Under the pieces are notes generated by a model that was not told where the DNA came from, did not search any database, and saw nothing but the letters and a program-made list of their open reading frames with translations. A DNA stretch of 41,237 nt from Patescibacteria group bacterium (GTDB lineage: Bacteria; Patescibacteriota; Minisyncoccia; JAHIHE01; JAGLIN01). The position numbers and the translations under genes were made by a program. The DNA lies in assembly GCA_029210775.1 (NCBI GenBank), contig JARGGI010000008.1, forward strand, positions 1-41,237, written 5' to 3'. Below are positions 29,917-32,888 of this stretch, piece after piece (the first letter of the stretch is position 1; the number at the start of each line of letters is the position of its first letter).

Positions 29917-31017
29917 ATGAAAAAACAAAATTCATCTATCTCTTCTTTTCAATGGGAGATAACTGAGTTTCAACTTAGACAGAAACAGCAAGCGTCTATT
30001 ATTGAGAAATTTTTATTTCCTTCAATTTTTTTAATGTTTATTTTTCCTCAATTAGGTTTTGTTGGAATTCTTGCAATAGCCGTCTTTTATATAAAATTAA
30101 ATAGTAACTCAAAGTTACAAACAGGAAATGTTGTTGCGGTTGAAAAGTATAAAATTGATAATAATGGAATAAGTATTAATGATGTAAAACAAGGGAAAAA
30201 CAGTTTTTATAGTTGGAATGATTTATCCTATTTTTATAATTATTCCAAAACAAATCCATTGTTCGGGTTGTTGTTTAGTAAAATTGTTGGAGATGAATTT
30301 TTTGTTATGAATAAAGATCTAAAATTAATCAAATTGAATACAAATACCGTTGATGTGGAAAAAATTAAATTTACATTATCTAAAAAGCTAAAATTTAAAC
30401 TGCCAACAAGCTGGCAAACACCTTCTTCTTCATCAAGTTCCTCATTTAAATATTCAGGGATTGGATTGTTTGGTAATTGGCTTAGCTTTCCATCATCTTC
30501 AAATAATAATAAGCAAAAGAAGATTGGATTTTCAAACAGAAATCAAGAAAAAAGATTTCATGAACAAACAATCGCAAGTCGGATAAATTTACAAAAAGAA
30601 AAGGAAGCTTTTAAGAATAAGTTAATAATAATTTTATATCTAATTGTGGCATTTTTTGTTACTGTTGTATATCTTGTTTATGAAAACAAGGATTCATTGT
30701 CAGAGTTCAAAAATGACTCGCCAGGAAATGTTGTTATTAATCCGATAGAATCAGAAGTTTCTCAAGAAAATGATAATAATTTTAATATTTCCGATGATGC
30801 AATGTTTTGGGAAAGAAAAGGCTGTCCAAAAAATGAAGTTGATATTGTGACATGTAATCAAGATAGTGATTGTGAAATATATTTTTATTTTTTGAGCGAA
30901 AAAGGCAAGCCAGTTGAAGAGAGTACTCCAAAGAGTATGAATTATTATGTTAATTCAATAAGAGATGAAGATGGTTGTGTCTGGGGTTCAATTAATAGAA
31001 AGTATAAAAAAGCATAA
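29917..31017 (+). CDS. Membrane protein of unknown function
   Basis: TM segments; ATG 29917 preferred to the TTG at 29887. Confidence 0.65.
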   Translation: MKKQNSSISSFQWEITEFQLRQKQQASIIEKFLFPSIFLMFIFPQLGFVGILAIAVFYIKLNSNSKLQTGNVVAVEKYKIDNNGISINDVKQGKNSFYSWNDLSYFYNYSKTNPLFGLLFSKIVGDEFFVMNKDLKLIKLNTNTVDVEKIKFTLSKKLKFKLPTSWQTPSSSSSSSFKYSGIGLFGNWLSFPSSSNNNKQKKIGFSNRNQEKRFHEQTIASRINLQKEKEAFKNKLIIILYLIVAFFVTVVYLVYENKDSLSEFKNDSPGNVVINPIESEVSQENDNNFNISDDAMFWERKGCPKNEVDIVTCNQDSDCEIYFYFLSEKGKPVEESTPKSMNYYVNSIRDEDGCVWGSINRKYKKA

Positions 31018-31232: not shown

Positions 31233-31260
31233 TTGACAAATATTTTTTATCCTGTATACT
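31233..31260 (+). promoter_or_regulatory. Near-consensus sigma70 promoter
   Basis: TTGACA (31233-31238), 16-nt spacer, TATACT (31255-31260). Confidence 0.7.
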
Positions 31261-31266
31261 GTTATA

Positions 31267-32485
31267 TAGAATTATTAAAAAATCTATGACAACATTAAAT
31301 TCACAATCAATGCGAATGAAAGAATCCCAGATAACTGGCTATTTTGTGATTGTGAAAATTAGCCTACTAATTAAGTAGTTTGCTTTTGATTTAGTTTAAG
31401 GCTCGCAAGAGTTAAATAAAACAAAACCAAAAGCAACCTACCAAATAGTAGGCTTTTTGTTAAATATAAACAAAAATTGATCTTTAAAAAAGATGTTTTA
31501 GACTTACTGTAAGCTTATTAAGGGATTTTATAAAAAGTTTTCAGTAGGTCTAAAATGGCCAGCATTTATTTGGAATACCTCCTATTCCCATTCCCGTCAT
31601 AAGGATAAATGCTGGCCATAATAATTAAAAAAGGTCTTTGGACCACGCTTGCGAGAGGATATGGGTCATTATGAATCATAATGAAATTAAATTTACAAAA
31701 AACAACACTAAAAAACCCATACTCCTCTCGCACCTCCTTTCTTTATTTTTCTTAGCTAATTGTGTTTAATAATTTTGAATATAATTATTGGAGAGAAATG
31801 CTCGTTTGTTTAAAACATAGACAAACGATGAGAATACTTTGAACCATGAAAGTATTCCTTTGCCGGGAATGACTGAAGAAATATAATTCTTCAAGACTCA
31901 CAAAAGCTAAGACCAAAAAAGCTTTTGAAAAAAACAGGGGCGGTATAAAATTTATAAAAAAATATTATTAAGTTTATTAAACCGCCCCTCTTCTCACCTC
32001 TTTTAATTTTTTTTTAAATTCAATTTCTGTTTATAAAAATTTGTAAATAGAAATTGCTTCATAAGTGATCCTTATGAAGTATATGGGAGATCCTTTCAAA
32101 AGAAGATCTCTCACAATTAAGAGAGCGGAAAAATTTGGAAAAAAGCCAAATAGAAATTATAAATAATAATTTTCTTTCCGCTCTCTCATCTTCATCTAAT
32201 AAAAAATGGAGGGAAATAATGAATTATAATGAAATGATAAGCATTCTAATTTTAATTTATTGTAAGAAAGAAACTGATAATTAAAAACATCTTTCTTACT
32301 CTTTTTTAAATCAAACAATTTAAATATACACCAGAAAATAAAATGAACTTAGCCAACAAAACACAACAAAATATAATCATTAGCATTATTATCAGCCACG
32401 GGGCTTTGCCTTGAAGGTTGATTTGATGATTTAGATTTAACCTGCAAAGCAAAATCCCGAACAAAAAATGTTCGGGATTTTTTGT
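31267..32485 (+). ncRNA. Candidate large structured non-coding RNA / hairpin array
   Basis: About a dozen long, often nested stems between a good promoter and a strong terminator; no ORF of 60 aa or more in the track between 31198 and 32610. Confidence 0.5.
32453..32485 (+). terminator. Rho-independent terminator
   Basis: AATCCCGAAC-aaaaaat-GTTCGGGATT followed by T-run. Confidence 0.85.
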
Positions 32486-32633
32486 TATTTGAAAAATATA
32501 TATTAAATTTTAAGTGTCATTGTGAAATTATTGAAAAATTGTTTTAAAAAATCTCACGACGACATTTGGTTGTCTAAAAATAAAAATAAATATTTACAAC
32601 ATATAAATTTTGAATTTAAGGAGGAACAGAAAA

Positions 32634-32888
32634 TTGAGTGATAATACATGGACCAGTGAGGGAGATAAAATTCTCCTAAATGTTGAAATGAATGGTGGGT
32701 TGCAAGATGTTATTATAAAATTAAATAAAATCGTTGGTGTAAAAGGAGAAAAATGGGATTTTGTTGGAAAACCTAATTTGTATGTATTTCCACAAATTAA
32801 AGTTATAAAATCTCAAAAAGAAGGTATCCTTGAAATTTTAAACAAGGAAGGATTTTTACATTATCATAAGGGGTTTAATAATAAGTAA
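32634..32888 (+). CDS. Hypothetical protein
   Basis: TTG start with AAGGAGG at 32618-32624; the 32610 start in the track lies before the SD. Confidence 0.55.
   Translation: MSDNTWTSEGDKILLNVEMNGGLQDVIIKLNKIVGVKGEKWDFVGKPNLYVFPQIKVIKSQKEGILEILNKEGFLHYHKGFNNK

Follow-up and report, generated by a model that had tools for sequence, protein, structure and literature searches.

Putative tandem leader-peptide attenuators of branched-chain amino acid type in an order of Patescibacteria

Introduction

In enterobacteria, ilvGMEDA and leuABCD are preceded by leader-peptide attenuators of the branched-chain amino acid (BCAA) type. Such attenuators have been described for ilv-leu of Staphylococcus aureus (PMC5794164) and for ilvBNC of Corynebacterium glutamicum (PMC11857589). 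Upstream ORFs (uORFs) also control ABC-F genes, as in the case of vmlR of Bacillus subtilis (PMC9226507) and of msrD (PMC10314930), and the mgtCBR leader of Salmonella carries tandem attenuators (PMC3641672). For large structured bacterial RNAs, OLE, GOLLD and ROOL served as comparison (PMC12286853). For Patescibacteria, the literature that we searched did not yield any account of attenuation by leader peptides.

Here, we analyzed a block of about 1.2 kb lying at positions 31233-32485 of a 41,237-nt stretch of DNA from a Patescibacteria group bacterium (GCA_029210775.1, contig JARGGI010000008.1), the whole of which we call the window. A first-pass annotation of the block had proposed one large noncoding RNA recalling the OLE/GOLLD/ROOL class. 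Based on ORFs, hairpins, covariation, recurrence and gene context, we find it likely that the block instead forms the 5' part of a polycistronic mRNA, with two ribosome-mediated transcription attenuators in tandem. Judged from their sequences, attenuator 1 would be of the leucine type and attenuator 2 of the isoleucine type, and the two together would form the leader of a gene that relatives still have but this genome has lost.

Results

A promoter-driven structured region

The block opens with a promoter and closes with a 13-pair terminator-like site (32451-32481) followed by T's, both as first annotated.

31233..31260, + strand: sigma-70-type promoter TTGACA-N16-TATACT, 11/12 consensus positions

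All of the inverted repeats listed earlier were found as well, corresponding to about a dozen strong stems. When folds were compared to dinucleotide shuffles, z was -6.5 for 31287-31466, -8.5 for 31467-31750, -8.2 for 31740-31995, -7.0 for 32010-32305 and -4.8 for 32344-32489, with 0/200 shuffles as good in each case. No ORF of at least 60 aa lies inside the 1.2-kb block, in line with the absence of a sizeable ORF noted before, but the short ORFs embedded in the stems had been overlooked.

The first annotation recognized no RNA family, and Rfam gives none for the block at gathering score (three tRNAs only in the whole window); none of its Leu, Thr, Phe or other leader covariance models reached that score. 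With relaxed thresholds, the block gave sub-threshold matches only (e.g., Thr_leader, 25.6 versus 55 bits), and the sub-threshold miRNA and leader matches were rejected as chance. A viral-contig search using the SpoIIM-like protein neighboring the block returned no match. On the 5' side of the block, the window carries a membrane-protein-like ORF (29917-31017, + strand) without a Pfam match above cut-off, and similar ORFs occupy the equivalent position in several relatives (L031, L035, L039, L046).

A leader ORF runs into a covarying terminator hairpin

The first attenuator (31286-31460) consists of the following elements.

31286..31378, + strand: leader ORF 1, MTTLNSQSMRMKESQITGYFVIVKISLLIK-stop, 30 codons, with a BCAA-rich end and tandem CTA CTA Leu codons
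31300..31355, + strand: hairpin P1, TTCACAATCA/TGATTGTGAA, inner CCAG/CTGG, within leader ORF 1
31361..31460, + strand: attenuator terminator, arm A AGCCTACTA, inner GCTTTTG/CAAAAGC stem, arm D TAGTAGGCT, T-run

Arm A overlaps the final codons of leader ORF 1: the stop codon falls inside this 5' arm of the covarying hairpin, and the CTA CTA codons are themselves arm sequence (AGCCTACTAATTAAGTAG). The aligned copies have in common the promoter, an ATG about 20 nt past the -10 box, an ORF of about 30 codons (90, 93 or 96 nt) running into the hairpin arm, and the T's; an automatic search located a matching promoter in front of 26 of the 33 leader copies. The leader 1 frame was open and ended at the hairpin arm in 33/34 copies while both other frames were closed in 33/33, the latter control being the informative part, since the start had been picked so as to yield such an ORF. 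The 34th copy (G017.C36) reads MEVSNKKSIINIFSLRIK-stop by eye, a shorter ORF just beyond the distance limit of our script.

Toward the end of leader 1, 7 of 12 codons specify isoleucine, leucine or valine (last 12 codons), compared to 25% in the proteins of the window. CTA represents 9% of the Leu codons here and is thus infrequent yet not rare. Neither leader 1 nor leader 2 has a clear Shine-Dalgarno (SD) sequence at its start. Among five close copies of leader 1, 80 codons were nonsynonymous versus 11 synonymous, and third positions were not the most variable. On these counts, the leader 1 peptide appears not to be under protein-like selection, which suits a leader peptide and is no independent proof of translation. 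Because of this, coding is argued from frame, start and stop instead of selection.

P1 is probably a pause hairpin, and other complementary pairs replace its inner stem in G006a, G002 and G004.C61 (by eye). In terminator hairpin 1, 96.5% of the cells were paired, far above slid controls, and 13 cells were double-changed versus 4.4 in shuffles (0/500 as high). Masking arm A in folding, to mimic a ribosome sitting on it, led to loss of the A:D stem and lowered the pairing of D in 22/22 copies; a shorter 5-bp terminator-like stem was still possible in several copies.

A second, isoleucine-rich leader precedes an antiterminator and a terminator

The 3' end of the block (32343-32485) has a similar layout.

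32343..32414, + strand: leader ORF 2, MNLANKTQQNIIISIIISHGALP-stop, Ile-rich
32400..32459, + strand: antiterminator hairpin, GCTTTGC...AGGTT/AACCT...GCAAAGC
32451..32485, + strand: intrinsic terminator, AAAATCCCGAACA/TGTTCGGGATTTT plus T-run, including the 13-pair site

Leader ORF 2 was found in at least nine genomes, with in-frame indels; in relatives it reads MTLINKSQRNIIISIIISRGTLSCRLV-stop, MNLINKQQNIIISIIISHGILSCRLV-stop, MLNQSQNIIISIIIIGAWPGGF-stop and others. Six of the nine residues of its core (NIIISIIIS) are I, L or V, again versus 25% in the window's proteins. In eight aligned genomes, 94.8% of the antiterminator cells were paired, with 9 double-changed cells versus 3.6 in shuffles (0/500 as high).

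The computed fold flips cleanly between antiterminator and terminator in G012, G003, G008 and G006. No such flip was seen in the window (terminator probability, 0.99 versus 1.00), because its two hairpins no longer overlap. In G003 and G011, leuA directly follows the leader 2 locus (NF002085 above cut-off) and both leaders are in place. In genomes without leuA, attenuator 2 tends to be damaged: it is decoupled in the window's genome (G000), has no hairpins in G004 and has no leader in G014 and G005, although G012 and G008 have a good switch despite lacking leuA.

The pathway is missing from the window's genome

Behind the second attenuator, the window carries a short ORF at the leuA position.

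32634..32888, + strand: 84-aa ORF behind AAGGAGG, standing where G003 and G011 have leuA

Homologs of this ORF occupy the equivalent position in G008 and G012 (43% and 37% identical). It has no Pfam match, and its predicted fold (mean pLDDT, 68) gave no PDB match below E = 0.39. A live leu operon behind the block was rejected for this genome, as the leuA HMM and Pfam HMGL find nothing there. Indeed, no HMGL-like/LeuA, IlvD or IlvC was found anywhere in the genome, which is estimated to be 100% complete, and the switches are thus orphaned here. The bacterium is apparently unable to make these amino acids. BCAAs are probably imported by these cells, in which case the sensor outlived its pathway or got separated from it. 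Within the order, IlvD was found in G004 only; the leuA homologs are mostly without IlvD, and their product may therefore not be a BCAA.

These observations bear on the possibility, which we regard as rather unlikely, that the window locus is a decaying relic whose leuA was lost and whose leaders regulate nothing any more. The missing enzymes and the failure of the Ile switch in silico fit such a decay, as do the early stop of leader 2 and the loss of leader 2 or its terminator in G004, G005 and G014. However, leader 1, its promoter and its terminator remain intact and close to consensus. The central stems have also stayed conserved, and the 84-aa ORF has its homologs in two other genera.

The 5' module recurs upstream of leuA, ABC-F and other genes

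When 60 related genomes were searched at the DNA level, 19 of them gave matches, the strongest within the same family, and the matching records in a named collection were Patescibacteria (Parcubacteria, Paceibacterota, Moraniibacteriota). In the alignment to relatives, the 5' 230 nt were covered in all main copies, the middle was patchy and the 3' 150 nt aligned well again. We then built a covariance model on the 5' hairpin (R1) and ran it against 293 genomes drawn from the class. The 5' module was present in 17/19 genomes of the order and in 0/274 others of the class. Matches at E of about 0.002 were inspected singly; the R1 match G012.C29, which lies inside a long ORF, was discarded as chance.

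Directly 3' of the G006 copy, whose leader ends in ALNLSLLLV-stop, and of a G011 copy, whose leader ends in NLLNLQSSLSLLAS-stop, lies leuA (2-isopropylmalate synthase). The G006 gene (L049:1873-3414, - strand) contains one in-frame stop (TGA), reflecting an assembly error or a split gene. A leuA-like start follows the G009 copy at the contig end, and an aminotransferase-like gene follows the G004 copy (leader ending in SVVVIERIVLLG-stop). At L050, L036 and L048, a tiny ORF accompanies the attenuator copy, and shikimate/prephenate genes lie alongside on the opposite strand.

Eight relatives, as well as the genome of the window itself, have copies with an ABC-F ATPase gene directly 3' of them. 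The leaders of these copies end in KPTN-stop, KPVK-stop or KPVR-stop, whereas those of the window locus and of the leuA type end in SLLIK-stop. The same arm (GCCTACTAATTAG) encodes S-L-L-I at the window locus and, in another frame, K-P-T-N-stop in G008. The sister copy in the window's genome (L115; G000:C22, upstream of 77457, minus strand) has the leader MNNFSLKSNNIYTSRIFGCVVMFEVKPVR-stop and a hairpin. The ABC-F gene behind it is 78% identical to that of G001 and is likely drug- or translation-stress-inducible.

With the same scaffold before ABC-F genes in at least nine genomes, the window's included, and with vmlR and msrD both controlled by a leader uORF and attenuation (PMC9226507, PMC10314930), the leaders could be antibiotic-sensing arrest peptides at the window locus too, rather than amino-acid sensors. 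We consider this improbable: the arm is read in different frames in the two types, and the window locus has no resistance gene and a run of Ile in leader 2. Some copies (G017.C68, G001x, G004x) have no annotated same-strand gene directly downstream, which could point to action in trans of a short attenuated RNA or leader peptide, like that reported for rnaTrpL/peTrpL of Sinorhizobium (PMC7298713), but most of them then have a tiny SD-preceded ORF and a terminator and the peptide body is not conserved, leaving this very unlikely.

The middle region is structured and variable

The two attenuators are separated by about 880 nt in the window and by 699-1153 nt across seven genomes. In the window, this span contains the following features.

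31496..31735, + strand: three long hairpins (31496-31555, 31555-31619, 31650-31732)
31744..31930, + strand: conserved block with a hairpin pairing UAUUUUUCUU with the Shine-Dalgarno/AUG GGAGAGAAAUG, then tandem hairpins
31798-31842, + strand: mini-ORF MLVCLKHRQTMRIL-stop, within the conserved block
32021..32056, + strand: hairpin CAATTTCTGTTTATAAA/TTTGTAAATAGAAATTG, also seen at further attenuator loci
32219..32284, + strand: tiny ORF MNYNEMISILILIYCKKETDN-stop behind a GGAGG Shine-Dalgarno; relatives have ORFs that differ in sequence at the corresponding position

The middles of relatives harbor ORFs of 20-84 aa behind SD sites. Tiny SD-preceded ORFs of the L047/L042/L043/L050/L048 group, which lie in the middle or downstream of attenuators, look related among genera (beginning MSFQELVERLFEIYL, MTFQELTERLFKICL and MSFGELTKALYEIYR), and the same group contains a second look-alike set (beginning MPFAFEAGEKTVNGLVESLEKC and MPGKFSFEIGLTSDELVTELENC). 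In G010 and G012, tRNA-Val lies right behind the first attenuator, at the position of the first long hairpin, and in G011 it lies further on. At the window's equivalent of the G010/G012 position, ARAGORN detected no tRNA-like remnant. The tRNA-Val genes that follow a BCAA-type attenuator within its transcript are L033:6215-6288 (-), L034:862-936 (-) and L037:5494-5570 (+).

Several stems within 31740-31930, among them the one pairing with a Shine-Dalgarno/AUG, are kept with compensatory changes in G000, G001, G010 and G012, an alignment of four sequences only. Covarying stems, a check suggested with the first annotation, were thus found in attenuator 1, attenuator 2 and the central stems, and the promoter-driven structured RNA region outside Rfam was borne out. 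Since the middle stems are conserved in these four genomes, the structured RNA of that annotation is partly real, as intercistronic structure of an mRNA. Compared across the relatives' sequences, the middle as a whole appears too variable for one conserved RNA.

If the block were a single large, ornate noncoding RNA like OLE, GOLLD or ROOL, working in folded form by itself or in an RNA-only complex, this would account for its length of about 1.2 kb from promoter to terminator, for the many stems of extreme stability, for the central stems covarying in four genera and for the absence of an Rfam match. We nevertheless hold it to be highly improbable. Both ends are conserved, and each appears to encode a leader peptide that runs into attenuator hairpins; the 5' module also occurs on its own at other loci; the middle is conserved in near relatives only and is otherwise swapped for small ORFs or tRNA-Val; and in two relatives (G003, G011) the equivalent locus is a leuA leader. 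The proposed likeness to OLE, GOLLD and ROOL fell with it, as no Rfam covariance model of such a family matched and the RNA is not conserved as a whole.

Discussion

Under the tandem-attenuator reading, we infer translation, stalling, BCAA sensing and the direction of the response. RNA polymerase would start near 31267, and a ribosome would translate leader 1. At high charging with leucine (or BCAAs in general), the ribosome would reach the leader 1 stop and leave, arm A would pair with arm D and the T's that follow it, and transcription would stop near 31460. At low charging, the ribosome would stall at VIVKISLL and cover arm A, D could not pair with A and transcription would continue through the middle to the Ile gate. 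About 880 nt further on, a ribosome on leader 2 would control the antiterminator/terminator pair near 32400-32485 and thereby gate the downstream gene, which is leuA in G003 and G011; in the window's genome, leuA is gone and the 84-aa ORF stands in its place.

More speculatively, and with considerable doubt on our part, the locus may represent a starvation-gated cassette of a new sort in amino-acid auxotrophic Patescibacteria. Detached from biosynthesis, the scaffold would now gate tiny peptides that change fast, besides structured RNA and tRNA-Val, and reading the same arm in another frame (SLLIK-stop or KPTN-stop) would switch it between an amino-acid and an antibiotic signal.

With one scaffold traced through an order, before leuA, ABC-F and other genes, the change of an attenuator's signal becomes traceable in sequence. 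If a host-dependent bacterium retains a starvation sensor but not the pathway, this would reveal what such cells monitor. The case is also a warning: a chain of stems that lacks a long ORF need not be a giant RNA but can be an attenuated leader containing tiny coding frames. What is new is the lineage-specific attenuator; BCAA attenuation and uORF attenuation of ABC-F genes as such were already known.

The block shares length and many stems with OLE, GOLLD and ROOL but differs from them by the lack of any sequence or covariance-model match, by the coding leaders at both ends and by its modular gene context. The mgtCBR leader is likewise long and includes two short ORFs, each linked to stem-loops. 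Its signals and gene are different, however, and in the present block each leader comes with a conserved set of hairpins of its own, with cargo in the spacer. The resemblance to vmlR and msrD lies in the sister copies, one of them in this genome, in which a promoter-proximal uORF and an intrinsic terminator precede ABC-F. The window locus differs in that its leader ends in Leu codons and is not followed by an ABC-F gene.

The described BCAA attenuators have the same short BCAA-rich ORF directly 5' of a terminator/antiterminator, and leuA is the target in relatives. Unlike in those systems, two attenuators here follow each other at a distance of about 0.7-1.15 kb, with small ORFs between them (tRNA-Val in relatives), the terminator arm overlaps the final codons of the leader, and the arrangement is confined to one order of Patescibacteria and retained in a genome without the pathway. 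A BCAA biosynthesis gene downstream, as expected of a BCAA attenuator, is absent in the window's genome; G003 and G011 have one at this locus, and so do other copies in G006 and G011.
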